Assembly: GCF_000520595.1 (NCBI RefSeq)
Contig: NZ_KI915007.1
Coordinates: 1 to 36,960 of the forward strand
Length of the DNA: 36,960 nt
Direction of reading: 5' to 3'
Source of the DNA: Arthrobacter sp. H5
Lineage (GTDB): Bacteria > Actinomycetota > Actinomycetes > Actinomycetales > Micrococcaceae
Numbering within the stretch: the first letter of the stretch is position 1; the number at the start of each line of letters is the position of its first letter. Below the pieces are notes generated by a model, which saw only the letters and a list, made by a program, of their open reading frames with translations, had not been told where the DNA came from and ran no database searches. This document shows positions 1,043 to 35,819 of the stretch, one piece after another. The translations under genes were made by a program, and so were the position numbers.

Positions 1043-1080
1043 AACACAATCCTAGAGCCGACACACCATAAAACCTAAGT
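1..1080 (-). mobile_element. Partial ISAzo13-family insertion sequence
   Basis: The element comprises the transposase gene plus about 40 bp of upstream sequence. Homology of the neighbouring TraG/VirD4 gene stops near 1082, so the inner IS end should lie between about 1050 and 1082. The other end and any target duplication lie outside the window, so the exact terminus cannot be fixed here. Confidence 0.75.
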
Positions 1081-2059
1081 TATTATGTCGCGAGTCCTCA
1101 GGAGCAATATTGATCAGCGCCTCCAGCCCGGCAGCTTGCAGCGGGTAGTCGTGAGCTTCGAGGATCTGCACAGGTTCTTTGCTGACCTGGACAGTGACCC
1201 AAATGTAAACGTCGGTGATGGGCCGTTTATCTAGGGCAGCGGCCAGGAACATCGACGTCAGCAGATCCTCTGCTTTCGGATCGAAATAGGCGTCGGGTTT
1301 CGCACCAGGTACACGAGATCCCGACGCGAAATGCTGGGTTAGCCGTGCCGCTTTATCTTCGTCGGTCACGTAAGACAGAGGATTCCACCACCAGGTAGGT
1401 TCTTCCTGCGCAATTTTCTGAGGGTCGAAGATCCACACTGGAGCTGACACTGCGCGGACCCCACGGGTGGCATCAACCACGTCACGCTTGTTTGAGGTTG
1501 AAATGACCGCACCGGGAGCATCCAGGATCGCCAGGATAATCCGGGCCGAGGACTTACCCGTTCGCGGCCCCCAAATGTCGATGCTGAGATCTTCCCAGGA
1601 CTGGTAGAACGTCTGACCGGTGGAGACAACCGAGCCGACAACAATCCCCGGACTATCCTCTACACCCAACCGCTGCGCCGTGGCCTTGACACCACGTTCG
1701 GAGAACGTGGCCAAGTCTTTGCCCCGGCCCATGTACCGGGCAGCTTTATCAACACGAGCTTTCTTACCCGAGCGCTTCACCGACAGAATCCCGAACGGCA
1801 CCACCAGCAGCACCAGGGCCACACCCATACCCATAGCAATAAACGTTGCCTGTACCGGCCAAGGGATCTCGCCCTTGAAAAGCCCCGCTATCAGTTCTAT
1901 CGGGTGGGCCGGCGGTGCACTGATCCCGGCCAACGAGGAGCCCCAGTGCGCGGATACCCACGCCCCGCCCAGGAGCGCCGCAGCTAAGCCCATCACCGAG
2001 AACAAAAGAATGCCCTCGGTATAGCTCCCGGACGTACCTTTACGGTTTGGTGCGCTCAT
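1052..2059 (-). pseudogene. TraG/VirD4-like conjugative coupling ATPase, C-terminal half removed by IS
   Basis: Coupling proteins are hexameric membrane ATPases that bring DNA to a type IV secretion channel. The 335-codon remnant has two N-terminal membrane segments (about residues 16-35 and 68-92). A Walker A loop, GPRTGKSS, lies at about 164-171, followed by the family-like stretch AVISTSNKRDVVDATRG. Relatives are roughly 600 residues. Here the gene stops after EDSRHNN and runs into IS sequence (last residues LGFMVCRL), so Walker B and the rest of the motor domain are lost. Its ATG overlaps the stop of the upstream VirB4-like gene (ATGA at 2059-2056), indicating translational coupling in the original operon. 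It is almost certainly non-functional. Confidence 0.88.
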
Positions 2060-5165: not shown

Positions 5166-6516
5166 CCCCCGCTGCTTCGTCTGAAACCTTCTTTACTGCG
5201 TCCGCGCCCTTGGACGCAGCGGACACCGTTGCTCCTGCAGCCGCACCCACCGGGCCCGCGGCCGCGCCGGTTTTTGCTCCTGCTGCACCGGTTGCAGCGC
5301 TGCCACCGCCCGTTCCGGCTCCGGCCATGGCGGGAACACCACCGGCAGGCGCACCCGACGGTTCACCGGATGGACCGGTACTCTTGCCGCTGGTTGATCC
5401 CGGAGTTGGTTTGGCTCCACCGGGACCGCTGCCCGTAGTCGAGCTGCCTGAAGGTGAACCGGAGGATTTACTGCCGCCTCCCCCACCGTCGGTGTTTGAC
5501 TCACCGGTGGTGCTGCGGCTGGGCGGTGTTGGTGTTGCGTTGCCGCTTCCACGTCCTGCTGCACCGAGGGATCGTGCACCGGAGGGCAGCGCGGCCGCAG
5601 CCGCTCCCAGTGCTCCTGCGGCCATGCCGCCTCCACCGCCGGCGACGGCTCCCACCATCGGTGTCACGAAGCGCAGCAACGCCGGCAGAGCAAGCAGTGC
5701 GACCACCATCAGTGCGATGCCGGTGATCGTGTTCAGCAGGATATTGGCCCCGGCGGAGACGCCGTCTATCAGTCGGAAAGCGACCGCGTACACAATGGCC
5801 GCCGCGGGTTTGTAGAGGATGAAAGCCAGCGTCCAGCCAATGGTTTTCTGGAACCACTGCTTACCCATCTCCGTGTTCGTGAACGCCGCCGTGGTCGGCA
5901 GGATCCCCGCCAGAATGACGAGCATTCCGCTGCGGACCACCATCAGCACGATTTGGGTTATCGACGTGATAATTCCGATCAGCCCCAGGATGATCAGCAT
6001 GAAAACGGCTACTTCTCCCTCACCCATAATCAACATGGTCTGAATGGCCGTGGCGAACCCGTTCCCGTCCGTGGCCTGGTCGATGATCCAGGAAGAGAAT
6101 CCGTCGGCGGCCACGATCAGGAAAGCAATCACGGCGAGACCCATGCCTGAGACAAGGGTCAGGGTCAGTAGGGACCGGACGAGCTCACGGATGGGCGCGC
6201 CGCGCTGCTCCCAGACCATACGGGTGCCGCCGACGATGACCGCCAGGACAGCCAGTGCTGCCGTCCAGTACCAAAGACCATCCTGCAAAAACGCAACCGT
6301 TGGTGAACCGGTTACACCGTCATTCGTGGTCAGGTTGCTCGTCGGCATATCAACCCAGAACGTGGAAAGTGTTGTGACTATCTGGGACAGCGCAAAGGTG
6401 ATCGCGCGAGCCAAATTCTCGATTCCATCACCAACAGCGTTACCGATCCAGTCCCCAGCTAGTCCGCCGCCTTGGCACATGAGATCAAGAGGTAGGCAGA
6501 CTTTTTCCTCATCCAT
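5137..6516 (-). CDS. VirB6/TrbL-like polytopic conjugation membrane protein
   Basis: A 459-residue membrane protein that would form part of the inner-membrane channel of a type IV secretion system. Hydrophobic segments run from about residue 80 to 290 (for example WYWTAALAVLAVIVGG, LTLTLVSGMGLAVIAFLIVA, VAVFMLIILGLIGIITSITQ, ITGIALMVVALLALPALLRF). A long low-complexity tail rich in Gly, Ser, Ala, Pro and Thr follows from about 305 to the end, as is usual for actinobacterial homologues next to SCO6880. The N-terminal CLPLDLMCQGG contains two cysteines. Frame intact. The strong Gly/Ala bias produces long antisense open frames that are not genes. Confidence 0.82.
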   Translation of the reverse strand: MDEEKVCLPLDLMCQGGGLAGDWIGNAVGDGIENLARAITFALSQIVTTLSTFWVDMPTSNLTTNDGVTGSPTVAFLQDGLWYWTAALAVLAVIVGGTRMVWEQRGAPIRELVRSLLTLTLVSGMGLAVIAFLIVAADGFSSWIIDQATDGNGFATAIQTMLIMGEGEVAVFMLIILGLIGIITSITQIVLMVVRSGMLVILAGILPTTAAFTNTEMGKQWFQKTIGWTLAFILYKPAAAIVYAVAFRLIDGVSAGANILLNTITGIALMVVALLALPALLRFVTPMVGAVAGGGGGMAAGALGAAAAALPSGARSLGAAGRGSGNATPTPPSRSTTGESNTDGGGGGSKSSGSPSGSSTTGSGPGGAKPTPGSTSGKSTGPSGEPSGAPAGGVPAMAGAGTGGGSAATGAAGAKTGAAAGPVGAAAGATVSAASKGADAVKKVSDEAAGDGPSGSNSK

Positions 6517-22560: not shown

Positions 22561-23913
22561 TCAGACGAGCGAGCCTAGATCTGATCCGACCGATGGGTAG
22601 GTGGCTGTTGTTGATTTCAGCTGTCGGGTGGTGAGGCCGTGTTTCATGGCCATGCTGATGGTGTTCGCTAGTTCGGCGTATCCGGTGCCGAAGAGATGCG
22701 CGCCGACGATCCGATCCGTTGACTTATCGATCAGGATTTTCGATGCGCTGCTTGTTTCCCCTGTGCGGTAGTTCGAGTACCAACGGCTGGTATCGGTGTA
22801 GCGGACGTCAATGTCCAGACCATTGTCCTTAGCCTCGTGTTCGAGCATGCCGAGGCGAACCAGTTCAGGAATTGTAAAAACTGTCGTCGGGGTGGCGGTG
22901 TAGTCCGGGATTGTGGTGGTTGATTTGAGCATGTTGGATGCTGCGACTTTGGCCTCGAACACTGCGACTGGGGTCAGCGGCATACCTGGGGTGTCAGCTG
23001 AATCACCGGCTGCGTAGACTGCGGGATTGGTGGTGCTCTGGAGATGGCCGGCGACATGAACGCCTTTGGGCCCATAGGCGACGTTGCCTGCTTCGAGGGT
23101 CAGTCGGGATAGGTCTGGGGTCCGGCCCGCGCCGTGGACGATGAGGTCGGCTTCAATCGTCGACGGCTTTCCAGCTTGATTTAGGTGTATGTGGAATCCG
23201 TTGTCTGTTCTGACGATGCCTGTGACGGTCGTGTTGCGCTGAACTATGACACCTGATTCTGTGCCGCGCGCTATTAGTAGATCAACGAGGTCTGGGTCGA
23301 AGTTCTTCAGTGGCCGGGCGCGGCGATCAAGGATGTGTGTGGAGCTTCCGGCTCGGGCGGCGATATGAGCGAATTCGAAGGAGATGAAACCTCCTCCGAC
23401 GAAAACGATCCGGGGCGGCAGCCGCTGAAGGTTGAGGAAGTCGGTGCTGTCGATGAGATGTTCTGCCCCGGAGAAACCCAGCGGTCGGGGTGCGGCTCCG
23501 GTGGCCACAAGAATTTTCGCGGCTTCGTAGGATGCTCCGGCGATGTCGATTCGTGTCGGGGCGGTGAAGGTGGCAGCCCCGTGGAGGGTTTGCACTCCAT
23601 GTGATTGGAGGTTTTCCTCTATGGTCGCGGGGATCGGTTGGGTGAATCCGTGTTTGTGTTCCATCAGTTCCTGCCAGTTGATGGACATGGTTCCGGGGTT
23701 CACCCCTTTACCGCTCATGAGCCGGGCGGCCTCTATTACTTCGGCGCCACGCCTGAGGATTTTTTTGGGATCGCATCCGCGCAGGGCACAGGTACCGCCG
23801 TAGGGAAGGGAATCCACGATTGCAACGTTCCACCCATTCGACGCGCATTTGGTCGCGGCGGCGATTCCAGCCATCCCGGCACCAATGACCAGAAGGTCAA
23901 CATCAGTAGTCAT
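22561..23913 (-). CDS. FAD/NAD(P)-dependent disulfide oxidoreductase (glutathione reductase-like)
   Basis: A 450-residue class I pyridine nucleotide-disulfide reductase. It has the N-terminal FAD site VIGAGMAGIAAA, the redox pair Cys42/Cys47 in GGTCALRGCDPKK, the NAD(P) site VFVGGGFISFEFA and the second FAD motif VYAAGDSADTPG. The C terminus ends TYPSVGSDLGSLV, where classical enzymes have HPT...E, so the usual His-Glu catalytic base is missing. There is no N-terminal metal-binding domain and no C-terminal vicinal cysteines, so it is not a canonical mercuric reductase. ATG 23913 has AAGAAAGAG upstream, just after the thioredoxin-like gene; both are read from the MerR-type promoter. Confidence 0.9.
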   Translation of the reverse strand: MTTDVDLLVIGAGMAGIAAATKCASNGWNVAIVDSLPYGGTCALRGCDPKKILRRGAEVIEAARLMSGKGVNPGTMSINWQELMEHKHGFTQPIPATIEENLQSHGVQTLHGAATFTAPTRIDIAGASYEAAKILVATGAAPRPLGFSGAEHLIDSTDFLNLQRLPPRIVFVGGGFISFEFAHIAARAGSSTHILDRRARPLKNFDPDLVDLLIARGTESGVIVQRNTTVTGIVRTDNGFHIHLNQAGKPSTIEADLIVHGAGRTPDLSRLTLEAGNVAYGPKGVHVAGHLQSTTNPAVYAAGDSADTPGMPLTPVAVFEAKVAASNMLKSTTTIPDYTATPTTVFTIPELVRLGMLEHEAKDNGLDIDVRYTDTSRWYSNYRTGETSSASKILIDKSTDRIVGAHLFGTGYAELANTISMAMKHGLTTRQLKSTTATYPSVGSDLGSLV

Positions 23914-23914
23914 C

Positions 23915-24250
23915 TCATATCTCTTTCTTGTCTGAAAGGTCGGCCGTAGCCGTAGCGGGTGGTAGCGCTGCCCTGAGCTGGTCGATGGTCGGGGCGCCGG
24001 CTGGTCCGTCTGGGGTGAGGTATCGACGGCAGGCCAAACCGACTGGTGTGCCAGGGCCGGCAAAAACGTCGATGTCGTTGATTCGGATGCTCGGCGACCC
24101 GTGAAAGCCAGCCCGTTCGGCGTCGTCGGCGGTTTCGATTTTTTGGAGTGAGAGGACGATGTCGGTGCGTTCCTCAGCTAACGCGACGAGTCGTTCGTGG
24201 GCGAGGGTCCAGTTGGGGCAGTCATCGAAATACTGCAGGGTGATCTTCAT
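23915..24250 (-). CDS. Thioredoxin-like small protein of MerR-linked operons
   Basis: A 111-residue protein with a thioredoxin-like fold signature: the beta strand ITLQYFDDCPNW (a single Cys in C-x2-W, not CxxC), FHGSPSIRINDIDVFA with the cis-Pro, and GLACRRYLTPDGPAGAPT. It is common in actinobacteria beside MerR regulators and flavin disulfide reductases; its partner or substrate is not established. ATG 24250 lies just after the MerR-type promoter at 24288-24257. It is the first gene of the two-gene operon; the disulfide reductase starts one base after its stop. Confidence 0.82.
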   Translation of the reverse strand: MKITLQYFDDCPNWTLAHERLVALAEERTDIVLSLQKIETADDAERAGFHGSPSIRINDIDVFAGPGTPVGLACRRYLTPDGPAGAPTIDQLRAALPPATATADLSDKKEI

Positions 24251-24256
24251 ACCTCG

Positions 24257-24288
24257 ACTGTAAACCTTATAGTCAACTATAAGGTCAA
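24257..24288 (-). promoter_or_regulatory. MerR-type promoter/operator
   Basis: A perfect inverted repeat ACCTTATAGT-CA-ACTATAAGGT (24264-24285) lies between a minus-strand -35 TTGACC (24288-24283) and a -10 TACAGT (24262-24257). The spacing of 20 bases is the overlong spacer typical of promoters that MerR-family activators untwist. It sits between the divergent merR-like gene and the thioredoxin-like gene. Confidence 0.88.
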
Positions 24289-24303
24289 GGGTTAGACTAA
24301 GGC

Positions 24304-24711
24304 ATGCGTATTGGGGAAATCGGAGCGCTTGCGGGCGTCGATAGTCAGACCATCCGGTTCTATGAGCGTGAGGGTCTCCTGCCGGATCCTCGCCGCGACT
24401 CAAACGGCTACCGCAGGTATGATTCCGCGGTTGTGGGTCGTTTGCGGTTCATCCGGTCGGCTCAGGGAGCAGGACTGACGTTGGCTGAGATTTCGAGCAC
24501 GCTGCGGCTACGCGACGCAGGTGAGGTGCCGTGCGCCCACGTTTCGGCTCTCCTCGAACAGAAACTTGTCGATGTTCAGGTTCGTCAACGCGAACTTGCG
24601 GCCTTGTCCGCTGAGCTCAGCGAGCTGATCGAGACGAGTCGGGGCCTTGACCCTGCTGATTGTTTCGACGCGGATGTGTGCCACATCATCACACCGTCGA
24701 AGGACATGTAG
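24304..24711 (+). CDS. MerR-family metal- or thiol-responsive regulator
   Basis: A 135-residue activator/repressor with the MerR winged helix (MRIGEIGALAGVDSQTIRFY, EREGLLPDPRRDSNGYRRYD), a dimerisation coiled coil (about 80-113) and three cysteines. These are Cys77 (VPCAH), Cys120 and Cys126 (ADCFDADVCHII). The layout resembles Cys82/117/126 of the mercury sensor, so a thiophilic metal is a reasonable effector; it is not proof of mercury. It is divergent from the operon it should control and binds the palindrome 19 bp upstream of its own start. Its stop codon lies inside a terminator stem. Confidence 0.9.
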   Translation: MRIGEIGALAGVDSQTIRFYEREGLLPDPRRDSNGYRRYDSAVVGRLRFIRSAQGAGLTLAEISSTLRLRDAGEVPCAHVSALLEQKLVDVQVRQRELAALSAELSELIETSRGLDPADCFDADVCHIITPSKDM

Positions 24712-24758: not shown

Positions 24759-25301
24759 TTAGAGGCTTGGTGCGGCTGGGATGTCCAGGTCGGTTTCCAC
24801 GAGGTGGTTGAAGTAGTTGGTGAACAGGTTCAGGGCCACGTGGGTGGAGAGTTCCGTGAGTTCGGTGTCGGACCATCCGGCGTCTAGGGCGGTTTGCCAG
24901 TCTGCGTCTTTGACGGCTCCCTTGTTTGCGGTGGCCTGGCGGGCCAGTTCCAGGAGAGTCGCGAGTTTGTTGTCGAAGTCGATCTCGCCCTTGCGGATCG
25001 CGATGGTCTGATCCTCGGTGAGCCCGGCGGCTTTGGCGCCCATGGTGTGTGCGGACTGGCAGTAGGTGCACTCGTCGACGTTGCCGACGACCAGGGCAAT
25101 GGCTTCCCGGGTGCGTGCGTCGAACGTGCCGTAGTCGCCGATGACCTGCTGAAGCGCCACGTAGGACTGCAGGACAACGGGGGAGTGGGCCATCGCGCCG
25201 TGAATATTGAGGACCTTCCCAAACTGTTTCCCCAGGGCAGCGAGTTCGTTGCGGCTTTCTTCGGGGGCGGTTTCAGGGGTGTGGATGGTAATACGGGTCA
25301 T
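24759..25301 (-). CDS. Carboxymuconolactone decarboxylase/AhpD-like protein
   Basis: A 180-residue all-helical protein of the CMD/AhpD family. The redox motif Cys78-x2-Cys81-x3-His85 (DECTYCQSAHTMGA) is that of AhpD-like peroxidase or disulfide relay proteins. Downstream is GWSDTELTELSTHVALNLFTNYFNH. True decarboxylases lack the CxxC, so a peroxide/thiol role is preferred. ATG 25301 has AGAAGGA at good spacing; upstream in-frame sequence is not part of the protein. It lies 106 bp downstream of the Crp/Fnr gene, same strand. E. coli YnjA, in the ynj cluster, belongs to the same family. Confidence 0.9.
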   Translation of the reverse strand: MTRITIHTPETAPEESRNELAALGKQFGKVLNIHGAMAHSPVVLQSYVALQQVIGDYGTFDARTREAIALVVGNVDECTYCQSAHTMGAKAAGLTEDQTIAIRKGEIDFDNKLATLLELARQATANKGAVKDADWQTALDAGWSDTELTELSTHVALNLFTNYFNHLVETDLDIPAAPSL

Positions 25302-25407: not shown

Positions 25408-26208
25408 TTAGAAGGTGGTGCGGGAGATTCGGCGCAGTCCTTCGGCGTCTTCGATGATGATCCGGCCTCGTCCTTGCCTGAGCAATTTTCTAGCGGCGAA
25501 GTCAGACATGGTCTTGCTGGTGGCTTCGCGTGTTGCTCCGAGCAGTCCTGCAAGTTGTTCATGAGTGAGTTTCACGGCGACGGAGTGCGTGAACCTGTTG
25601 CGGGGGGCGGCGTCGGCGAGTTTGCATAAGGTCGCTGCGGTTCGAGCTGAAAGGGGGCGCAGGGCCATGTCCGTAAGACGTTCTTCCAACCGGGCTACTT
25701 GTTCGCCGAGTAGGCGGGAGATTTTCACCGCCAGTTTGGGGTTTGAGAGGAAGTGGTTTTCGACCTCTGCTGCGCTGAGCTGGCACACGGTTGATTCTTC
25801 AAGCGCTTCGGCATAGTTGTCGTACATTTGCATGCCTACGAGCAGCATCTCACCGAATACCGCTCCGGGTTCAAGGATTGCGATGGTGAGGGTTGTCCCA
25901 TCCTCGGCAACCCGGAAAATCCGGATCCGCCCGGCTTTGAGAATGAACAGGGCCTTGATGGGTTGACTCTGGCTGAAGACGAGTTCGCCACTGTGAAAGA
26001 GTCGAGGCGGAGACATCCTGTCGAGGGTATCCATGTCCTCGGTCGTGAGGTCAGCGAATAACTCCACGGCGTTGAGGCAGCTGAAGGGCTCCCCGGTTTC
26101 GGCCAAAGATTCTCTCTCCCGTTCGTGTGGCGCCCAGGGCGTCGTAGGTTTGCTGGCGGCGGACACAATTGTGGTGGAGCAGGCGGCCTTAAGCCTGGGC
26201 GTGGTCAT
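25408..26208 (-). CDS. Crp/Fnr-family transcription regulator
   Basis: A 266-residue regulator. A cyclic-nucleotide-binding-type beta barrel occupies about 45-160 (ELVFSQSQPIKALFILKAGR, TLTIAILEPGAVFGEMLLVG). A C-terminal winged helix follows (VKLTHEQLAGLLGATREATS, KTMSDFAARKLLRQGRGRII). There is no N-terminal cysteine cluster of the FNR iron-sulfur type (only isolated Cys10 and Cys44), so oxygen sensing by [4Fe-4S] is unlikely. The effector is unknown. Its ATG at 26208 overlaps the stop of the upstream membrane protein gene (ATGA), giving translational coupling. It may control the AhpD-like gene downstream. Confidence 0.9.
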   Translation of the reverse strand: MTTPRLKAACSTTIVSAASKPTTPWAPHERERESLAETGEPFSCLNAVELFADLTTEDMDTLDRMSPPRLFHSGELVFSQSQPIKALFILKAGRIRIFRVAEDGTTLTIAILEPGAVFGEMLLVGMQMYDNYAEALEESTVCQLSAAEVENHFLSNPKLAVKISRLLGEQVARLEERLTDMALRPLSARTAATLCKLADAAPRNRFTHSVAVKLTHEQLAGLLGATREATSKTMSDFAARKLLRQGRGRIIIEDAEGLRRISRTTF

Positions 26209-26669
26209 CGGCCGCGCCGGATGATCAGGGCTGCCACTAGTCCCAGAATAAGGCCATAGACTGCGTGCCCCATCAGCGAGGCACCGGATCCTGCGTCGAG
26301 GGAGAAAATGGGCATGCCCATCATGGTAGGCATGATCAACAGCGGACCAAGAACCCACCACAGCATGCCGTAGACAAGGCCCACGACGGCGCTGATGATC
26401 AAGCCTCTTTTCAGCAATCCAGCACCGGGTATCGTCAGCGTGAGGCCGATCAGGACCGAAATCACCAGATGGACCAGGAAACCGGCGATCGCCGAACTTG
26501 ACCCGACCAGTGAGGCAATCATGCCCAACATGCCCATCATGGCCATCAGGAACCCAAAAACGATCCCACCAGCAAGACCGCCTAAAGCCCCGGCCATCAT
26601 TCGGGTGCCAATGGACGGGCCGGTGTCTGTGGATCTTTTCGCCCGTGTCCCGCTATGTGCTGAAGCCAT
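26205..26669 (-). CDS. Small polytopic membrane protein, unrecognised family
   Basis: A 154-residue protein with a polar N-terminal 20 residues and about four hydrophobic segments (ALGGLAGGIVFGFLMAMMGM, SAIAGFLVHLVISVLIGLTL, GLIISAVVGLVYGMLWWVLG, LMGHAVYGLILGLVAALIIR). It is rich in Met and Gly (MAMMGMLGM, MPTMMGMPIF). I do not recognise a named family. It is translationally coupled to a Crp/Fnr regulator, suggesting the two act together, for example as membrane sensor and regulator; this is inference only. Confidence 0.75.
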   Translation of the reverse strand: MASAHSGTRAKRSTDTGPSIGTRMMAGALGGLAGGIVFGFLMAMMGMLGMIASLVGSSSAIAGFLVHLVISVLIGLTLTIPGAGLLKRGLIISAVVGLVYGMLWWVLGPLLIMPTMMGMPIFSLDAGSGASLMGHAVYGLILGLVAALIIRRGR

Positions 26670-26778: not shown

Positions 26779-27839
26779 TTACTGGGTGACGGCCCACCCG
26801 GTGGTGTTGACGAGTTGCAACCCGACATGTTGACCTATCCCGATGTCGGGGTCGCCTAAGACTTCGACGGTGAGCGCTGGTGCGAGTCCGTTGGGTCCGG
26901 TGGGTTCGTTTGGTCCGTGGCTGGTGACGTGGACTAACGTGTGGGCGCCTAACGATTTGATCCCTGTCACGGTTCCCGCTGCTGGTCCGTCCGCGGGCCC
27001 GATGATGCGGATGGCTTCCTGTCGGACGGTGAGGAACGCGGGACCGTCCCTGAGCCCGGGCTGCACGGGGAATCGGCCCAGCGCTGAGTGGTGGACCCCT
27101 TGGGCTAGCCTGCCTGGTACGGCGTTGAGGCCTCCCAGAATTCTGTTGACTGCCAGTGTCGCCGGTTGATAGTGCAATTGGGCGACGGGACCGTGTTGCA
27201 GGATCCGCCCGCTATCAAGGACCGCGATCGAGTCGGCGATGATTGATGCTTCCCGGCGGTCGTGGGTCACCAGAACATTGTCGGGGCGAGTTCGGTGCGA
27301 ATATCGTCCATCAGCGAGTACATCTCGTCCCGTAGCCTGGAATCGAGGGAACTGAACGGTTCGTCGAGGAGGAGGATGCGGGGGTTCCTCGCTAGTGCCC
27401 GGGCCAGTGCAACGCGCTGTTCCTGCCCGCCGGAAAGCCGTCCCGGTGAGCGGTGCGCGAGGTCTGCCAACTTCACCAGTTCCAGGTACGCCATGGCATG
27501 ATCCCGGGACGCTTTGCGGGACTGTCCGGCCATTCTGGCGGAAAACGCGACGTTATCGACCACGCTCAGATGGGGGAAGAGCAGCGGTTTCTGGAACACC
27601 AGGGCGACGCCACGCTGTTCAGATGGGACACCACTCAGGTTCTCACCATCGACGACCACCTCACCCGAGGATGGATCCTCCAGGCCTGCGGCGATCCTCA
27701 GTAGGGTGGATTTCCCGCTGCCGGAGGCGCCGAGTAATGCCACACAGCGTGATGACTGAACGGTCAGGGAAATCTGATGCAGTACTTCAGTGTCACCGAA
27801 GGAGCGCGAGATGTCGTTGAATTCGAGGTGGGAGCTCAT
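26779..27839 (-). pseudogene. YnjD-type ABC transporter ATPase, single-base frameshift
   Basis: ATP-binding subunit of the importer encoded upstream. Present are Walker A GASGSGKST, ALVFQKPLLFPHLSVVDNVA, signature LSGGQEQRVALARALARNP, Walker B LLLDEPFSSLDS and switch THDRREA. The first frame ends at TGA after ELAPTMFW. One missing base near 27275-27277 (ATGTTC instead of ATGGTTC) would give TMVLVTHDRREASIIADSIA. The second part continues to 26779 with a C-terminal TOBE-like extension, giving 353 residues when repaired, longer than E. coli YnjD. Total 1061 bp is one base short. If the lesion is real, the transporter has lost its switch histidine and C-terminal domain. Confidence 0.87.
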
Positions 27840-28663
27840 TGTCGTCTTTTCCTTGCCGCGGGCAGGGTGAGTCCTGCGAGCAGGATCAAGGGAGGGATGA
27901 TGATGGCCACCGATAGTGCTGTGGTGAGTTGTTCGTTTCCGGTCGTCGAGGCAGCGGATCCCAGCAGCAGAGGCAGGGTGCGTAGTTGTCCTCCACCGAT
28001 GAGCAAGGTGGAGATGTAGTCGCCCCAGCCGACAAGGAAGGCCAGGAAAAAGGCGCGGGCGGCTGCGCTGGCAAGCAGGGGGTAACGGACATGGCGGGTG
28101 GCCTGTCCGGGGGAGGCGCCCAGTGAGCGGGCCACCTCCTCGAAGCGGTGGTCGTAGCTTGCCAGGGCGCTGCGGAACATGAAGGCCGTGTAGGGCAGTG
28201 CCGTCACTACCAGGACCAGGGTCACCCCTAGTGTCGGTGACACGTAGAGCCGCAGGAGAGCAATGTTCACGCCCATCACCAAAGCGAACGGTGGGATAGC
28301 TAACGGGACCAGGAGAACAAACTCGACGAAGCGGCTAGGGATGGCAGGTAAGGCGCGTACGGCGAGTGCTCCCAGGTAGCCCAGCGGTGTCGCGATCACG
28401 GCCACTCCCAGCCCCAGCGAAAGCGAAGACACGGCAGCCCGGGCAGTGTCTGCGGTGGCGAGGTCGGCGAACCCTTGCAACGAGTACGACGACGGCAGGA
28501 CGGTCGGGGCACGCCATTGACCGGCGACCGACCACAAAAGTACCGGCACCATCGGCGCCACGATCCACGCTACGAGCAAGCAACCCAGGATGACCCGCAT
28601 GGGGAACCCGCCGGGCAGGGTGCGGCGCATCGATGGTGACGCTGGCTGCAGGACGGGAATCAT
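27836..28663 (-). CDS. ABC transporter permease (YnjC-type, second permease)
   Basis: A 275-residue inner-membrane permease with about six hydrophobic segments (for example VILGCLLVAWIVAPMVPVLL, FVEFVLLVPLAIPPFALVMG, VTLVLVVTALPYTAFMF). The ATPase-docking EAA-like loop is FEEVARSLGASPGQATRHVR. ATG 28663 overlaps the previous permease stop (ATGA), and its own end overlaps the ATPase gene by four bases. Upstream in-frame sequence is antisense noise and is excluded. In E. coli the YnjC permease is one fused protein; here it is two. Substrate unknown. Confidence 0.85.
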   Translation of the reverse strand: MIPVLQPASPSMRRTLPGGFPMRVILGCLLVAWIVAPMVPVLLWSVAGQWRAPTVLPSSYSLQGFADLATADTARAAVSSLSLGLGVAVIATPLGYLGALAVRALPAIPSRFVEFVLLVPLAIPPFALVMGVNIALLRLYVSPTLGVTLVLVVTALPYTAFMFRSALASYDHRFEEVARSLGASPGQATRHVRYPLLASAAARAFFLAFLVGWGDYISTLLIGGGQLRTLPLLLGSAASTTGNEQLTTALSVAIIIPPLILLAGLTLPAARKRRQ

Positions 28664-29538
28664 CGCAAGCTCCGATGACGGCGAAGTACCAGGATCGCCG
28701 TGCTGATCACGGCTACACTGACGGCCACGGATACCAGGGCGGTCACCATAGCCTGCGGACGGGCAGCGAGATCGACGGAGGTGAACAACCTGACGGCTCG
28801 GACCGGAAGCGGTTCGGGGGTGGTGGGTCCGAGCAGCCACGCGGCTTCGTACGAGCCGAGGGTGTACACGAAGACGATGGCGGCAGAAACTGCTAGCGAT
28901 GGCACCGCGAGGGGCAGGACCACCCGGATGATACGCTGACCCGCGAACGCGCCGAGAGTGGCCGCCGCGTCGCAGAGGTCTCCGACGGAGCGCGAAATGC
29001 TGCCGAGGACGACCAGGGCTACGAATGCGGACTCTTTCCACGCGTACTCGGCGATGACGGCCACGAACCACGGCCCGGAAACCAGTGCTGGGAATGCGTC
29101 GGGCATCCCGAGTAGTCGTTCAAGGAATCCGCTGTCAGAGAGCAGCAGCCCGATAGCCCCTGCCCCGATCACATGCGGAATAGGAATCGTTGCGGCACTC
29201 AAAGTCTCAACTATCCGACCCGTTCTGGGCATGGCGAGCACATAGGCGGCAAGCACAAAGCCCACCACCAAGGAGAGCAGAGTGGAAACCGCAGCAATGT
29301 AAAGGGAGATAGCGCTCGAACGGACCAGCTCGTCAGCATCACCGGCCCACGCGTCCGCGCTGAACTGGGGAGGACCGAAAAAGGGCATCAGTCCGACGCT
29401 TTGCAACCCTGCTGCGGTCAGCGATACCCCAACAACGACGACGATGGGGACTACCGCCGGCAGGGCCAGGAGGGCAGCCCGTCCCTTGACCGGCGCCCGC
29501 CTCCCGGCCGTGGAGCTGAAGCGACGTCTTGCCGCCAC
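28660..29538 (-). CDS. ABC transporter permease (YnjC-type, first permease)
   Basis: A 292-residue permease of the iron/thiamine/spermidine-like importer class. Hydrophobic segments include ALLALPAVVPIVVVVGVSL, LYIAAVSTLLSLVVGFVLAA, VIGAGAIGLLLSDSG and LAVSAAIVFVYTLGSYEAAW. The EAA-like loop is LCDAAATLGAFAGQRIIRVV. GTG 29538 is the start. It overlaps the upstream binding-protein frame by 88 bp, unusually long for this arrangement, so the start or the upstream 3' end may be affected by another sequence error. Confidence 0.83.
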   Translation of the reverse strand: MAARRRFSSTAGRRAPVKGRAALLALPAVVPIVVVVGVSLTAAGLQSVGLMPFFGPPQFSADAWAGDADELVRSSAISLYIAAVSTLLSLVVGFVLAAYVLAMPRTGRIVETLSAATIPIPHVIGAGAIGLLLSDSGFLERLLGMPDAFPALVSGPWFVAVIAEYAWKESAFVALVVLGSISRSVGDLCDAAATLGAFAGQRIIRVVLPLAVPSLAVSAAIVFVYTLGSYEAAWLLGPTTPEPLPVRAVRLFTSVDLAARPQAMVTALVSVAVSVAVISTAILVLRRHRSLR

Positions 29539-30694
29539 GCCTCATTCAGAGCCGGCACCCATTCGGAAGCCAACTCACCGTGAGCATTGCGTGAGAGTTC
29601 CTCATAATCCGGGACGATCGGCGATTCCGGTAGCTGGTCGAAGAGGCTTCGTTGGGTTGGGGTGAGAAGATCCGTGTCCAGGACGGTGAACTGCCCCCAC
29701 GTTCCCGGATCTGCCTTCGCGGCCTGCTGTTCGGGCGATAGGGCAATGTTGGCGACCACCATGGCCCCCGCGGCATCCGCGGCGTTCACCGGCAACGCGA
29801 GGAAGCTCGCATTACCCACAGTGCCCTCCTCCAGGGTGAGAACCTTGGTCGACGGAGGTAAAGCTCCCGATTCGACCAGATCGGTGAGAGTGGCAGGGCC
29901 GTAGGTCATGGCGATGTCCACTTCGCCGTCGGCGGAGAGAGTGTTCAGCGCCTGCTCGTCCCGGGGGTAGGTGGCACCTTCCCTCCAGAGCGACGGCTTA
30001 AGCTCCGTGAGGGCTTGTAGCGCTGCGGGCGCGTGCTCGGCAAACGCTTCGTCGGAGTAGGTGAGCGGCACCTGGACGGCTCCGCCGGCGGTGCTGAGCA
30101 TGACCTCGCGCAGGAAGACGCTGCCGGTGAAGTCCGGCGGTCCCGGATAGGTGAACCTGCCCGGATGCGCTTGGGCCCAGTCAAGGATGCCCTGAAGAGA
30201 CGTGGGTGGGTCGGTGATGGCGTCCGAGTTGTAGAAGAACGTGAACTGTGCTTTATGCCAGGGAGCTTCGCAGCCGTCCACGGGGGTGCCGAAATCGTTT
30301 AGAAGCAGGCTTCCGCCTGTTTGCCGGTACTGAACGTGGAACCGTTGGCCCAGATCAGGTCCACCGGGCCGTCGGCACGGCCGGCCTGGAGCTCGCTCAA
30401 TACCCGGTTCAGCGCGTCGGGGGCGTCAGCGACAGGAACGCGGCGCAGTGTGACTCCCCGGTCCTGGGCGGCGGGCGCCAGAAGGTCATCGACGTAGGCG
30501 TTGCCTTTCGCATCTCCTCCGAACATCCACAGATCCACGGTCTGACCATCTGCCGCGGCGAGAACCTCGTCGAAGGTTCCAAAATCCTCGGCGGGCTCAA
30601 CGCTGGCGCCTGAACAACCTGTCAGTACTAGCGCGAGAATCGCGGCAACAGGCAGAAGAGAACGCCAACGTGCCGGGCTGAGAGATGGGTGCAC
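29451..30694 (-). pseudogene. YnjB-type substrate-binding lipoprotein, single-base frameshift
   Basis: Extracytoplasmic solute-binding lipoprotein of the YnjB family. The signal peptide ends in lipobox LTGC. Family features are TVDLWMFGGDAKGNAYVDDL, RRVPVADAPDALNRVLSELQ and GPVDLIWANGSTFSTGK. The frame closes at TAA after KQAEACF; adding one G near 30306 (TGCTTC to TGGCTTC) gives KQAEAWLLNDFGTPVDGCEA and continues through HPGRFTYPGPPDFTGSVFL to 29451. Total 1244 bp is one short of a multiple of three. YnjB-type ligands are not firmly known. The repaired protein would be 414 residues. It is divergent from the TVP38 gene. Confidence 0.86.
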
Positions 30695-30789
30695 GGGGGA
30701 TCCTTCGAAGGTCGGGTCTGCAGCTTCAAGTATCCTCGATAGCGGACCGACGCCCGAACCGGTACCTGAGCAGCGGATTGCGGAAAACT

Positions 30790-31470
30790 ATGCGGCGAGA
30801 ACATGTGCACGGCCAACCCCGGTCTGCGAAACCGATCCGCAAGCTCCTGATTTTAGTTACCGTCATTATCGGGGCAACCATCGTTGTTCTCTTCGTGCCG
30901 ATCCTGCCCGTGAACGAGATGCGCGATCTGGTAGACCGTGCCGGCTGGTGGGGGCCGGTGGGATTCATGGCCGGGTACGCAGCCCTGACCCTTGCACCGC
31001 TTCCCAAGAACATCCTCTCCATCGCGGCCGGCATTTTGTTCGGTTTCGGGCCGGGACTGGTGATCGTCTACTGTGCCGCGATGGCCGGAGCATCCGCCGC
31101 GTTCTGGCTGGGGCGCGCGCTGGGCAGGGACGCGGTCGAAAGGCTCACCGGCACCCGCATTGCCAAAGTTGATGCACTTCTGGCCAAACGGGGATTCGCG
31201 GCCGTCATCGGGGTCCGGCTGATCCCGGTGCTGCCATTCACCGCGATCAACTACTCTGCAGGACTGACAGCGCTCGGATGGTGGCCCTACTTCCTTGGAA
31301 CGATGATCGGGATTCTTCCCGGGACGGTGAGTTTCCTGGCGTTGGGAGCGTTTGGTCTCGAACTGGGCTGGCCAGCCCAACTGGCAGTGGCGGTTCTGGG
31401 CGGACTGACCCTCGCCGGAGTCATGCTCGCCGTCCGATCCCGACGAAAAACAAGGAGCACAAATGTTTGA
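30790..31470 (+). CDS. TVP38/TMEM64 (VTT domain, DedA superfamily) membrane protein
   Basis: A 226-residue polytopic membrane protein. The conserved VTT block is seen in GFMAGYAALTLAPLPKNILSI, AAGILFGFGPGLVIVYCAAM, ASAAFWLGRALGRDAVERL, and the basic/proline stretch VIGVRLIPVLPFTAINYSAG. DedA/VTT relatives are linked to lipid scrambling or flipping in bacteria and eukaryotes. ATG 30790 is chosen to leave room for divergent promoters with the YnjB-like gene; an in-frame ATG at 30685 would overlap that gene's start. Its end overlaps the CDP-alcohol phosphatidyltransferase gene by 8 bp. E. coli YdjX and YdjZ, next to ynjA-F, belong to the same family. Confidence 0.9.
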   Translation: MRREHVHGQPRSAKPIRKLLILVTVIIGATIVVLFVPILPVNEMRDLVDRAGWWGPVGFMAGYAALTLAPLPKNILSIAAGILFGFGPGLVIVYCAAMAGASAAFWLGRALGRDAVERLTGTRIAKVDALLAKRGFAAVIGVRLIPVLPFTAINYSAGLTALGWWPYFLGTMIGILPGTVSFLALGAFGLELGWPAQLAVAVLGGLTLAGVMLAVRSRRKTRSTNV

Positions 31471-32092
31471 TACCCGGCTACGGCCGCTCCTGGCGCCTCT
31501 GCTGAACCGTGCGGCAGCAGCCCTGGATGTGCCATGGATTAGCCCGAACCGGTTGACCGGACTGAACCTTCTGCTCGGATTAGCATCCGCAGGATTCGCC
31601 GCAGTCCAATGGTGGTTACCCGCCTTCATCGCCTGGGCGCTGTGCCGGCTCGCGGACGGCCTGGACGGACCGCTAGCCCGACGCCGGGCCAAACAATCGG
31701 GTTCTGGGCACGACTCGGGGCAGGGCGGGTTCTGGGACATCTCCGCCGATTTCTTCGTGTACGGCGCGACCGTCATCGGCGTAGCAGTAGGCGTAACTGC
31801 AGAGTTCGGAGCCCCCTGGCTCCCATTTCTTCTGGTTTTGTTCGCCTATTACATCAACGGCAGCGTGTTTCTGGCATTCTCTTCCATCGCTGAGAAGAAT
31901 GGGCGCCAGATCGACGATGGACGGTCGTTATCCTTCCTCGGCGGGCTCGCGGAAGGAGCCGAAACCGTCCTAATCCATAGTTTGTGGCTGCTCTTCCCAG
32001 CCGCTGCCTGGCACATTGCCTCGGTGTGGGCGGCCCTGGTCATGATCAGTGCGGCACAACGAATCTTCGCTGGCTACCGAGCCCTCGCCTGA
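31463..32092 (+). CDS. CDP-alcohol phosphatidyltransferase family protein
   Basis: A 209-residue integral membrane enzyme that would transfer a phosphatidyl or similar group from a CDP-linked donor to an alcohol, making a lipid headgroup. The signature is D65-G-L-D68-G69-x2-A72-R73, then G88-x3-D92-x3-D96; all four Asp are present. The distance between AR and the second half is 14 residues rather than the usual 8 or 9, filled by a polar Gly/Ser/His loop. Overlap with the TVP38 gene indicates co-translation. E. coli YnjF is in the same family. Acceptor alcohol unknown. Confidence 0.88.
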   Translation: MFDTRLRPLLAPLLNRAAAALDVPWISPNRLTGLNLLLGLASAGFAAVQWWLPAFIAWALCRLADGLDGPLARRRAKQSGSGHDSGQGGFWDISADFFVYGATVIGVAVGVTAEFGAPWLPFLLVLFAYYINGSVFLAFSSIAEKNGRQIDDGRSLSFLGGLAEGAETVLIHSLWLLFPAAAWHIASVWAALVMISAAQRIFAGYRALA

Positions 32093-32114
32093 TAGAACTC
32101 GACACGTGCCGCTG

Positions 32115-33551
32115 CTACTGCGCGTTCCTTTGACGTTTCAACCGGTCGGTTCGCCACCGGTTCAGACCAGCCAGGGCTTTGACAGCGACCCTCGCAGCCG
32201 GTGATTCCAGCCCTGACCGGGCATGGGCTACTGCCGCATTCCACAACGCATCGTTGTAAGTCGGGTAAGGGTGCGTGACGCCCGACAGGGCGCGGGTGCT
32301 GAGCCCTTGGTCCACGGCGAGCGTGAGTTCTGCCAGGGACTCTCCGGCCCTCGGGCCGACGATCGTTCCGCCCACGATGCGCCCGCCCTTGCCGATGATG
32401 ATCCGTGTGAACCCATTGGTCTGGTTTTCAGTGATCGCCCGGTCGGTGTGAGCGTGTTGGATGGTTGATGTTGTATGCGTTTTCGTGCGGGCCTCGGTGA
32501 CGCCGACGGCGGCGACTTCAGGGGAGGTGAACGTGACCCGAGGAATGACTTTACTGACTTTCCATCGGAGTCCAAGGATCGCGTTGGAGGCAGCTGTGCT
32601 GGCGTGCACCCCGGCAAGGTGGGTGAACTCCGGGTACGCGGTGACATCGCCGGCGGCCCAAATAGTCGGATTTGATGACCGCATTGCTTCGTCGACCACC
32701 ACCTGGCCGGATCCATCGCAGTCCACTCCGACCAGGTCAAGGCCCAGACCCCGCGTCCTGGCCTTCCTTCCCGTCGCGGCGAGGATGACGTCCGCAGGGT
32801 ATTCTTGGCCGTCCTTGGTGTGGACCACGGTTCTGGTGCCGTCGTTGTCGTTGCTGATCCGGTCCACGGCGGCGTTCTCGATCACCTGCACGCCGTCGGA
32901 CCGCAGACTGTCACGGACGAGGGCCGCTGCGTCGCGGTCTTCCTTGGGCAGGATCGCGGAGCGGGCGAGGATCACCACCTGTGAGCCGAGCCGGGCGAAC
33001 GCCTGCCCCAGCTCACACGCGATCGGGCCGCCTCCGATAATCACCAGGCGCTCCGGAAGGGTCTCCAGGTCCCAGATGGTCTCCGACGTGACGACCAGTG
33101 GTGCGTCATCTAGTCCAGGAATAGGGGGAAGTGTTGGTGCGCTGCCGGTGGCGATGAGAGCCTGCCGGAAGCGGATTTTCCTGCCGTCAACAGTGGCTTC
33201 ACCTGGGCCGGTGAAGCGGGCGCTGCCTGACATGACAGTGACGCCTGCCGATTCGAGGGCTGCCGGGGAATCTTCTGGTTCAATCGCGGCGATGGCGCTC
33301 GAGATGCGTTGACGGACGGCAGCAAAATCAGTGCTGCTGCCGGAAAGGGACCGCTCCGTGGCTGAGGTTCCGGCCGCGGAGAGGAGCGTTTTTGACGGTA
33401 CGCAACCGGTCCAAAGGCAGTCCCCACCAGTTCGGGCGTATTCCACCAACACCGTGCGGGCACCCAGACGAGCAGCCGTTTTCGCCCCCACAATGCCCGC
33501 GGTTCCGCCCCCGATGACCAACAAATCAATTACTTCGGTGCTGTCTTCCAC
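32115..33551 (-). CDS. FAD/NAD(P)-dependent disulfide oxidoreductase (mercuric reductase/Lpd-like)
   Basis: A 478-residue flavoprotein. Motifs are FAD site VIGGGTAGIVGA, redox pair Cys45/Cys50 in GGDCLWTGCVPSK, NAD(P) site IIGGGPIACELGQAFARLGS, second FAD motif IWAAGDVTAYPEF, and C-terminal THPYPTYNDALWNAA. The His of the HPT-type motif is present, but the usual following Glu is not obvious. There is no N-terminal metal-binding domain and no C-terminal Cys pair, so mercury reduction is unlikely. GTG 33551 has AAAGGG upstream. In other bacteria such reductases occur next to, or fused with, TVP38 proteins, which fits this position. Substrate unknown. Confidence 0.88.
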   Translation of the reverse strand: MEDSTEVIDLLVIGGGTAGIVGAKTAARLGARTVLVEYARTGGDCLWTGCVPSKTLLSAAGTSATERSLSGSSTDFAAVRQRISSAIAAIEPEDSPAALESAGVTVMSGSARFTGPGEATVDGRKIRFRQALIATGSAPTLPPIPGLDDAPLVVTSETIWDLETLPERLVIIGGGPIACELGQAFARLGSQVVILARSAILPKEDRDAAALVRDSLRSDGVQVIENAAVDRISNDNDGTRTVVHTKDGQEYPADVILAATGRKARTRGLGLDLVGVDCDGSGQVVVDEAMRSSNPTIWAAGDVTAYPEFTHLAGVHASTAASNAILGLRWKVSKVIPRVTFTSPEVAAVGVTEARTKTHTTSTIQHAHTDRAITENQTNGFTRIIIGKGGRIVGGTIVGPRAGESLAELTLAVDQGLSTRALSGVTHPYPTYNDALWNAAVAHARSGLESPAARVAVKALAGLNRWRTDRLKRQRNAQ

Positions 33552-33647
33552 AAGGCTGCCCTTTCGATGTGTCGGCCCGGTTCCCTCTTAGCCTAGGCTG
33601 TTCTCACCATCAACTCCGCGGGGCGCGGAACCACGACTTGCCATGGA

Positions 33648-34307
33648 GTGATCCCGATCGCCGGTAAATACAGCACCTTCGCACCGTTTTACGATGTGAT
33701 GTCCGGCGAATACCCGGTCTATCGGGCCGGCCGTGAGACCGGCATCAAAATGCTCCGCCAACCCTCCGGCGCCCAGGTGCTCGACGTCGGTTGCGGTACC
33801 GGGCTGAACTTCAGTCTCCTCCAGAGCCAGATCGCCCCGGGTGGCACCATCGTCGGAATCGACCGCAGCCCAGAAATGCTTGTCCAGGCCCGCCGGCGGG
33901 CGGAGCGCAACGGATGGACCAACGTCATCCTCATCCAGGCCGACGCAACCGAACTTTCGCCCACCGACATCGGCTCCCGGATCGCAGCCCAGGGTGGCCG
34001 GGCACACTCCGACGCTATCCTGGCCACCTACGCGCTGTCCCTCATGAAGGACTGGGAAACGGCGTGGGCCAACATGGTCTCGCTCGCTGCTCCCGGGGCG
34101 TCCCTATGCGTGGTGGACATGCAAAAACCAGTAGGCCTTTCCGCAGCCCTGACGCTTTTGGCTAAAGCGGCATGCTGGCTCGGCGGATCCGACATCGACG
34201 CCCACCCCTGGACGGCCGTGGAGCGGGACTGCGCCGACGTCAAGGCGGCCTCCGCCCGTGGCGGACACCTGCAAATCCGTACCGGAACGCGCAACACAGA
34301 CGCCTAA
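33648..34307 (+). CDS. Class I SAM-dependent methyltransferase (PmtA/UbiE-like)
   Basis: A 219-residue soluble or membrane-associated methyltransferase. It has the N-terminal YSTFAPFYDVMSGEYPVYRA, SAM motif I VLDVGCGTGLNFSLL, acidic ribose-binding VGIDRSPEMLVQARRR and NVILIQADATEL. DAILATYALSLMKDWETAW follows in the catalytic region, and SLCVVDMQKP near the end. The build resembles phospholipid N-methyltransferases and UbiE-type enzymes; with a phosphatidyltransferase and a VTT protein nearby, a lipid substrate is my inference. GTG 33648 is assigned, but its ribosome site is poor. It lies divergent from the disulfide reductase gene with 96 bp between. Confidence 0.85.
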   Translation: MIPIAGKYSTFAPFYDVMSGEYPVYRAGRETGIKMLRQPSGAQVLDVGCGTGLNFSLLQSQIAPGGTIVGIDRSPEMLVQARRRAERNGWTNVILIQADATELSPTDIGSRIAAQGGRAHSDAILATYALSLMKDWETAWANMVSLAAPGASLCVVDMQKPVGLSAALTLLAKAACWLGGSDIDAHPWTAVERDCADVKAASARGGHLQIRTGTRNTDA

Positions 34308-34437
34308 CCGCAACCCGCAGGAGCGTATGGTTGTGGCACTGGGATGCGACGCTGGGACTGCAACAAAGTGCCGGCCCAAGGGTAGGCAGGACACGCACTC
34401 AACACAGTGAAGTGATTTCAGGTGAAGGAATTAGCTC

Positions 34438-35819
34438 ATGTTTTCGGATTTCCTCAGGGAACTGGAATTACGCACCCGACCCGTACACCCGGAGTCCCGG
34501 GCCGCGATGCAGGCTCGCTGGGATGCTCTCCCTGACCACGTCAGAACCCCGAACCAGTTGCTGGGACGTGGGGCCGTTGGATGCGAAGGGACTCACGGGG
34601 TTTTCCCAAATGTAATCTGACCTGTTCACCCTGCTACCACTCGGCGGAGGCTAACCAGGTCCGTGTGGATGGACCTCATACCCTTCGCGAGGTGGCCCGG
34701 CAGATGGAGTATCTTCGCAGTGTCCGCGGTCCCCGCGCCCATGCGCAGCTCATCGGTGGTGAGGTGAGCCTCCTGGATCCGAACGACCACGCCGCGGCGC
34801 TGGAGGCGATGCGAGCCAACGGCCGTGAACCCATGTCTATGACCCACGGCGATTTTGATTATGCCTATCTGCTGGCCGTGGTCCTCGGCCCCGACGGGAT
34901 GCCGCGCTTCGACCGGGTGTCCTTCGCCGCTCATTTTGATTCTTTGATGAGGGGACGACGCGGCGCCGTCCGGCCAGGCAGCGAAGCCGAACTGGAACCC
35001 TTCCGACTGAAGTTCACGGAAATGTTCATTGATCTCCGCCGGGACTATGGTGTGGAGTCCTATCTCGCCCACAACATGACCGTGACCCCGTCGAACCTGG
35101 GCGAAGTGGCTCAGGTGACCGCATCGGTGCTACCGATGCCCTACAAGATGCTTTCTTTCCAGCCTGCTGCTTTCATGGGGGACGACCGCCACTGGAAGGA
35201 GGACTTCGACGAGGTCAGTATCGACGACGTGTGGGAGCAGATTGAACAGGGAGCCGGGCAGAAACTGCCCTGGCAGGGCACCCAGTTCGGTGACCCGCGA
35301 TGCAACCGCTATGCGACCGGAATATCGGCTGAGGGCACTTTTGCGGTCGTCATTGACCCGGCAGACCCAGCAGATATTGCCGCACGAGACCGTCTGCTCA
35401 ACCACCACAGCGGCATGTTTTTCGGAGGCCAACCGCGACCGGTCCTTGCAGTGCGTGTCCTGCGTGCAGCACTGCGACACCCTGGCGACGTGGCTGTTCT
35501 CGCCGGGCTCGGTCGGCGCGTTATCAAACGAGCCGGAGGAATCCGGGCGGTGTGGCGTGCGTGGCGGAGCGAAAGTCTCGGCGTCAAAACCTTCGTTGTG
35601 CATAACTTCATGGACTCCGAGGTCGTCGCGCCCGCGTGGGCGCTCATGGAACAAGGTGAAGTCAGCGGCGACCCCGCTGTCCGCGAAGCCCAGGAACGGC
35701 TCGGAGCCTGCATGTACACCATGGCCCACCCGCAGACGGGCCAGCTCGTGCCCGCCTGCACCCAACATTCCGTCCTGGACCCCGCCGAAAACAGGGAACT
35801 ACGGACTTGCTCCCTCTAA
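34438..35819 (+). pseudogene. Radical SAM protein, single-base frameshift just before the FeS motif
   Basis: Radical SAM enzyme. ATG 34438 has GAAGGA at good spacing. The first frame (HPESRAAMQARWDALPDHVR, VGCEGTHGVFP) ends at TGA 34618. Adding one C to the CCC near 34605 reads VFPKCNLTCSPCYHSAEANQ, placing Cys59-x3-Cys63-x2-Cys66 for the SAM-cleaving [4Fe-4S] cluster. The remaining frame is intact to 35819: AQLIGGEVSLLDPNDHAA, NMTVTPSNLGEVAQV. C-terminal cysteines in RLGACMYTMAHP, LVPACTQHSVLDP and LRTCSL may bind a further cluster. The total of 1382 bp is one short of 461 codons. I do not recognise the reaction. Probably intact if the missing base is a sequencing error. Confidence 0.85.

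Follow-up and report, generated by a model that had tools for sequence, protein, structure and literature searches.

The stretch of DNA analyzed here, referred to as the window, comprises 36,960 nucleotides of contig NZ_KI915007.1 from Arthrobacter sp. H5 (contig C35 of this genome, G000). Between positions 26779 and 35819 it contains nine core genes that recur together in Actinomycetota and are related to the ydjXYZ-ynjABCDEF group of E. coli. Every gene family that the original prediction had named in this region was found where it had been placed. The nine genes and three accessory neighbors are listed below with their family matches; fractions of 79 refer to the actinobacterial loci described in the next section.

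26779-27839, minus strand: ATPase of an ATP-binding cassette (ABC) importer, in the position of YnjD; in two frames (27267-27839 and 26779-27270), with in-frame relatives at loci L018 and L021
27836-28690, minus strand: importer permease B; in frame; PF00528, 59.8 bits (cut-off 26.4)
28660-29538, minus strand: importer permease A; in frame; PF00528, 24.4 bits, just under the cut-off of 26.4
about 29512-30694, minus strand: YnjB-type substrate-binding lipoprotein; broken; C-terminal part matches NF008633 with 281 bits
30790-31470, plus strand: VTT membrane protein (TVP38-TMEM64, DedA superfamily); in frame; PF09335, 92.8 bits (cut-off 33.9)
31463-32092, plus strand: cytidine diphosphate (CDP)-alcohol phosphatidyltransferase of the YnjF type; in frame; PF01066, 34.6 bits (cut-off 22)
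32115-33551, minus strand: disulfide reductase using flavin adenine dinucleotide (FAD) and NAD(P), with CxxxxC motif; in frame; PF07992 and PF02852
33648-34307, plus strand: class I S-adenosylmethionine (SAM) methyltransferase; in frame; PF13847, 61.7 bits
34439-35819, plus strand: putative radical SAM (rSAM) protein, family without a name; frame broken twice, pieces 34439-34615 (N-terminal) and 34581-35819 (main)
24759-25277, minus strand: accessory AhpD-like protein (carboxymuconolactone decarboxylase family); PF02627; near the rSAM gene in 13 of 79 loci
25408-26100, minus strand: accessory Crp-type regulator; PF00027 and PF13545; 17 of 79 loci
26205-26669, minus strand: accessory small protein, by eye a membrane protein; without match in Pfam at E 1e-4; 14 of 79 loci

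The VTT and transferase genes, both on the plus strand, overlap by 8 bases; the VTT start at 30790 was picked from an alignment with relatives. Three genes of the set are broken, which the original prediction had missed. Compared with the corresponding loci of two relatives (L021 of G030 and L020 of G010), the gene for the binding protein is 61 bases short and changes frame, the ATPase gene has one frame change and the rSAM gene two, while the frames of both permeases, the VTT protein, the transferase, the reductase and the methyltransferase are kept. Ten flanking genes of the window align whole or nearly whole, each as a single piece, to the relative G010, so that random sequencing errors are less probable as the origin of the breaks. 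To judge from the assembled sequence, on which the single-base breaks rest, the window copy is decaying.

Arthrobacter sp. H5 has additional genes of these families. On contig C75, the importer, VTT protein, transferase, reductase and methyltransferase are all in frame, and contig C50 encodes an unbroken rSAM protein of 478 amino acids (466 amino acids in a relative) with no core partner within the fetched 20 kb. Complete or partial sets were seen on contigs C75, C50, C59 and C43 (L018, L019, L187), with a methyltransferase, reductase and transferase at the end of C59 and another YnjB-type protein on C43. Damaged copies also occur in relatives: G034 has a split rSAM gene (L024, one contig), and in a second copy in G030 (L025, contig C66) the reductase has lost its middle, one permease is split and the rSAM gene is broken. 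The G010 locus matching the window has lost the stretch from the end of the ATPase gene to the methyltransferase gene; the eight non-rSAM genes are found elsewhere in that genome (L180), where the ATPase was called in two pieces. A plasmid origin of the window cluster was considered and dropped, as 72,556 plasmid records gave no near match of the cluster; the rSAM protein had no phage match at E 1e-5.

Recurrence of the gene set in Actinomycetota

A scan of named genomes with an rSAM profile yielded 264 relatives, of which the best 79 loci were kept. They lean to Micrococcales and Geodermatophilaceae (presumed assignments of the genera), and related genomes among them are not independent. Genes were called with a home-made codon-score caller, which gives approximate boundaries and missed the rSAM gene in one of the 79 loci (L132), and neighbors were grouped by BLAST and community clustering instead of curated models, so that the reductase and ATPase groups include some distant members. 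The commonest partner of the rSAM gene was the reductase, present in 68 loci (62 when 40% or more identity to the window protein is required), followed by the transferase in 63 (63), the ATPase in 62 (61), permease B in 60 (58), the binding protein in 60 (59), permease A in 59 (57), the VTT protein in 48 (48) and the methyltransferase in 35 (35). All seven partners besides the methyltransferase were present in 40 loci and none of them in three. Reductase, transferase and binding protein occurred together in 55 of the 79 loci and in 44 of the 51 loci that span 19 kb or more; these 44 loci show 15 arrangements, with 32 falling within three near-identical ones. The commonest order, seen in 18 loci, is rSAM, importer on the opposite strand, VTT, transferase, reductase on the opposite strand and methyltransferase. 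Overall, 37 gene patterns were distinguished, including ones cut by contig ends. Transferase and reductase genes adjoined 58 times, and all 63 transferases were closer to the window locus than to the four other CDP-alcohol loci of the same genome.

Recurrence of the gene set is far above chance, and the strong and widespread linkage makes it look like one system in most carriers. Adjacency in a single genome had been named beforehand as the outcome that would speak against the original prediction; instead, the gene neighborhood is conserved across Actinomycetota as it had expected, and the AhpD-like gene that it had pointed out nearby recurs as well. The reductase, which had been regarded as a follower gene, proved to be a core member by its frequency, its adjacency to the transferase and its fusion to the VTT protein in two of six proteobacterial loci (see below). 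The carriers include named isolates from the genera Microbacterium, Arthrobacter and Rhodococcus and from genera of Geodermatophilaceae, which makes the function of the set testable.

Co-occurrence was additionally counted in 57 genomes of relatives and 396 genomes of the phylum, both including the genome of Arthrobacter sp. H5. In these two samples, 6 and 10 genomes had relatives of the rSAM protein and 12 and 28 genomes had the transferase; a YnjB-type binding protein over the cut-off was present in 36 of the 396. YnjB and transferase share 21 of the 396 genomes (Fisher p about 1e-19, not corrected for relatedness). Transferase and rSAM protein share six, which are six of the ten rSAM genomes (p about 1e-5, or about 1e-4 when the genome of Arthrobacter sp. 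H5 is left out), and YnjB and rSAM protein likewise share six (p about 6e-5). Among nine rSAM loci from outside the genus, representing seven families, five had one or more core partners in the fetched stretch (L056-L060); in G342, a set that includes the transferase lies on another contig (L188).

Three close relatives, G015, G018 and G019, have the eight remaining genes but no rSAM match in their genomes, and because of this the rSAM gene, perhaps also the methyltransferase gene, looks like an addition to the set. In stretches of G001 and G011, the VTT, transferase and methyltransferase genes occur without importer or reductase. Beyond the core, proteins with DUF427 (20 of 79 loci), HAD proteins (19), Crp-type regulators (17), AhpD-like proteins (13) and extracytoplasmic function (ECF) sigma factors (11) recur, with DUF427, Crp and AhpD assigned by Pfam and the HAD and ECF sigma proteins by eye. 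The ECF-sigma-like protein often adjoins the reductase (e.g. L155, L159, L162, L163, L164 and L167; also L149 and the range L153-L169) and is a possible regulator of the set.

Relatives of the encoded proteins

By its sequence, the importer is assigned to the YnjB family, of the YnjBCD type: against the NF008633 cut-off of 203 bits, the C-terminal piece of the binding protein in the window passes with the score listed above and the C75 copy with 442 bits. The window and the loci with permeases have two separate permeases and not one fused YnjC of about 511 amino acids, and the best NCBIfam kin of permease A are permeases for 2-aminoethylphosphonate and molybdate, all far under cut-off. In the window, in most of the 79 loci and in E. 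coli, the importer genes are close to those for the YnjF-type transferase and VTT proteins. Among 50 aligned binding proteins, 49 have a lipoprotein-type cysteine and all 50 share two more cysteines (50 of 61 sequences were within the length limits; a separate alignment, A7, used 22 of 61). An AlphaFold model of the binding protein had a predicted local distance difference test score (pLDDT) of 83.1; a substrate call from this model was dropped, since its Foldseek matches spread over several ligand classes.

For counts of conserved residues in the other proteins, sequences of suitable length were aligned together with the window protein in each case (69 of the 77 reductases, 60 of the 63 transferases, 43 of the 49 VTT proteins and 30 of the 35 methyltransferases). 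In the transferase, D65, D68, G69, A72, R73, G88, D92 and D96 are invariant in 13 aligned sequences and correspond to D..DG..AR..G...D...D, which we take to be the catalytic motif. Judged by these residues and the PF01066 match, the transferase has the full catalytic motif of CDP-alcohol phosphatidyltransferases. Its solved kin include AF2299 and the DIPP, PIP and PS synthases, with phosphotransferases of inositol and serine lipids among them; a designed repeat protein in the top row of the structure search was taken as spurious, having no passing stretch. In Sinorhizobium meliloti (L177) and Qingshengfaniella (L179), pst/pho phosphate genes are found within a few kb of the transferase gene, which gives a hint of a phosphorus-containing substrate. 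The VTT protein reached 22 bits against the undecaprenyl-phosphate transporter UptA (NF052604, cut-off 250).

With its two domains and the CxxxxC motif (C45 and C50 in 69 of 70 aligned sequences), the reductase resembles MerA and dihydrolipoyl dehydrogenase, but it stays under the cut-off for mercury(II) reductase MerA (TIGR02053, 362 bits, cut-off 454) and has a tyrosine in an H-x-YPT motif, at the site of the catalytic histidine of lipoamide and glutathione reductases. It is 39 and 35% identical to reductase domains fused to proteobacterial VTT proteins, versus 30% to the other MerA-like protein of the window. According to PMC10127716, fusions with a reductase are the commonest fusion type of DedA proteins of COG0398. 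The methyltransferase is of a generic class I SAM type; its best 25 of 51 NCBIfam matches include none that reaches its cut-off. The likeness to PmtA, which the original prediction had pointed out, is weak (NF045882, 37 bits, cut-off 390). Two cysteines are common to at least half of 31 aligned methyltransferases, one of them inside the GCGTG motif.

The rSAM protein adds a family that reaches no NCBIfam cut-off, and the window piece remains under that of PF04055 (22.3 bits, cut-off 29.5). The cysteines of its CX3CX2C motif, which is shared by TrsS and Tes, are invariant in 48 relatives (alignment A4, 48 of the 79 rSAM proteins). Ten members, three of them from the genus, share C62, C72-C76-C79, C302, C438 and C454 (numbering of L019), and all seven are retained when two proteobacterial relatives of 24-28% identity are aligned with them; profiles of the actinobacterial and proteobacterial groups align over 329 columns (hhalign E 5e-27). 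The two proteobacterial relatives scanned score 100 and 106 bits against TrsS and 72-90 bits against Tes, under the cut-offs. Tes is the tetraether lipid synthase, a lipid-coupling enzyme. Fold matches of the AlphaFold model (pLDDT 80.7, predicted TM score 0.84) are weak and include AbmM (E 9.8e-4), a sactipeptide enzyme (2.7e-3), BlsE (1e-2) and a viperin-like protein (1.8e-2), mixed with unrelated barrels; ranks 1, 2 and 4 are held by AbmM and the sactipeptide enzyme, which are radical SAM enzymes, and the matches at ranks 7 and 10 have radical SAM in their titles. The substrates of AbmM, BlsE and viperin are cytidine compounds, which is only a hint for the function of the present family. 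The two annotated proteobacterial rSAM loci that were opened have DUF547 and arsenosugar-annotated neighbors and not a ynj importer: in Roseomonas, the gene is near a TIGR04282 'arsenosugar' glycosyltransferase, DUF547, VTT, FAD oxidoreductase and MauE/DoxX genes, and on a Burkholderia glumae plasmid it is near ArsS (450 bits, cut-off 300), DUF547 and DUF427 genes. A further relative in Cupriavidus is beside a DUF547-like gene (by eye).

The kinship to the E. coli ynj group, which had been proposed from the gene families, is borne out by the NF008633 score, by 38% identity between E. coli YnjF and the window transferase and by the E. coli gene order. Both systems have the YnjB-type binding protein, permease, ATPase, YnjF-type transferase, VTT and AhpD-like proteins; E. 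coli differs by its one long permease and a second VTT protein, its group also contains YdjY and the sulfurtransferase YnjE, and no FAD reductase, methyltransferase or rSAM protein is annotated there. The unexplained E. coli genes from ydjX to ynjF thereby gain conserved partner genes in a distant phylum. Titles and abstract openings in the literature searched gave no description of the gene set; YnjBCD is mentioned in PMC9207381.

In a plasmid collection, 59 records matched the transferase. Six proteobacterial loci with incomplete gene tables were opened: importer and transferase were present in five and a VTT protein in three, in two of them fused to the reductase. The locus of Klebsiella pINF355 has a sulfurtransferase between importer genes and no permease listed. 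The loci of a Klebsiella IncR plasmid (NZ_CP092394, L175) and Pseudoalteromonas CF6-2 share importer, transferase, VTT protein and reductase with the window, the latter two as one protein and the permease as a single long one; the Klebsiella locus additionally has a sigma-70-family factor, AhpD-family and HAD proteins. Its host is a bovine isolate, and similar transferase matches occur in Salmonella, Citrobacter and E. coli records. The proposal that the rSAM and methyltransferase genes are an actinobacterial addition agrees with neither being annotated in the six loci, within the limits of their gene tables, but rSAM relatives as such do exist in Proteobacteria.

Possible functions of the gene set

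In our tentative view, the window genes, decaying in this copy, represent an actinobacterial form of the E. coli ydjXYZ-ynjABCDEF group that is conserved and may import a small molecule for the building or remodeling of membrane lipids. Work on lipids is our best guess because the transferase, the VTT protein and the Tes/TrsS-like rSAM protein point that way, together with some neighbors elsewhere, namely MCE/PqiA genes at the Roseivivax locus and a sterol-desaturase-family protein at the Pseudoalteromonas locus. In its favor we also count the linkage in 79 loci, the co-occurrence in the phylum, the transferase motif and solved kin, the VTT-reductase fusions and the scores of the proteobacterial rSAM relatives against TrsS and Tes. 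From the protein families we infer the following reactions, substrates and order of steps. The YnjB lipoprotein and the ABC importer would bring in a small polar compound, perhaps a phospho- or phosphono-alcohol, which the transferase would join to a diacylglycerol backbone, taking the phosphatidyl group from CDP-diacylglycerol; no cytidylyltransferase was found among the nine core families, some neighbors being without family assignment. The lipid formed would be equilibrated across the membrane by the VTT protein, its headgroup or chain may be tailored by the rSAM protein and the methyltransferase, and the FAD reductase might keep a thiol, a metal center or a lipid group reduced. More specifically, the set could constitute a new pathway in which the YnjF-type phosphatidyl lipid made from the imported compound is modified by the Tes/TrsS-related rSAM enzyme, which would form a bond from carbon to carbon or to a heteroatom on the lipid or its headgroup, and in which VTT protein and reductase act on the same lipid, leaving E. 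coli ynj as the unmodified core; we consider this version doubtful.

Several observations weigh against a lipid pathway of this kind. The actinobacterial rSAM protein reaches 28 bits against TrsS (NF045646, cut-off 490) and at best 29 bits against Tes (NF045702, cut-off 450), with matches in eight of ten members. Tes is its best PDB profile match but an insignificant one (E 0.71) and is absent among the best 50 Foldseek matches, which mix non-radical barrels with radical SAM enzymes; membership in Tes was discarded after family scan, profile and fold search. The model of the binding protein is about equally like binding proteins for iron, polyamines, thiamine, dinucleotides and other ligands. 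Of the 14 loci titled as Geodermatophilaceae (one of them a 5-kb contig), 13 have no VTT gene in the stretch, four of the nine rSAM loci from outside the genus have no core partner nearby (L061-L064), and three of the ten rSAM genomes in the phylum sample (G154, G197, G434) have neither YnjB nor transferase. In addition, E. coli data in PMC3930520 tie the ynj genes to Suf Fe-S assembly.

A serious, if rather unlikely, rival is a module for redox balance or oxidant defense, in which reductase and AhpD-like protein would perform NAD(P)H-driven thiol or peroxide reduction for membrane lipids or quinones, the VTT protein and transferase would renew damaged phospholipid and the importer would bring in a protective solute. 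It has to be taken as real because the reductase, as the commonest partner, recurs along with AhpD, DUF427, HAD and ECF sigma proteins, Crp-type regulators being frequent too, and the sigma factor, AhpD-family and HAD proteins of the Klebsiella plasmid fit in as well. The reductase scores about 202 bits against chlorine- and hypothiocyanite-defense enzymes, far under their cut-offs of 740 and 650, and PMC10127716 links COG0398 DedA proteins to aerobic metabolism. However, such a module leaves the rSAM protein, the methyltransferase and a headgroup transferase with conserved motif unexplained, and AhpD is present in just 13 of 79 loci.

It is also conceivable, at a lower probability, that separate modules travel together without a shared pathway, i.e. 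a nutrient importer, the lipid pair and an rSAM-methyltransferase pair. The core without rSAM match in G015, G018 and G019, the stretches of G001 and G011 and the solitary rSAM gene on C50 would fit this, whereas the parts stay together through 15 arrangements in the 44 long loci (32 in the three near-identical ones), co-occur at the level of the phylum and include the overlapping VTT and transferase genes. Least probable to us is an organo-arsenic or metalloid lipid pathway akin to arsenosugar phospholipids, with the rSAM protein adding an organic group to the element and the transferase making the phospholipid. It is suggested by the surroundings of the distant rSAM relatives in Roseomonas and on the Burkholderia glumae plasmid. 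The known arsenosugar route is not supported by the gene content of Arthrobacter sp. H5, which has neither ArsS (TIGR04167, best 21 bits, cut-off 300) nor ArsM (NF008823, best 53 bits, cut-off 263) over the cut-off. The methyltransferase, with its two common cysteines, is unlike ArsM, and no arsenic gene was recognized among the recurrent neighbor families, most of which were not scanned.

Outside the set, large minus-strand reading frames occupy positions 1052-6516 of the window; the four scanned (226-505 amino acids) have no Pfam match at E 1e-6. Positions 22561-24711 contain the other MerA-like reductase, a small protein resembling thioredoxins by eye but without Pfam match, and a divergent MerR regulator, in the same order as in G010.

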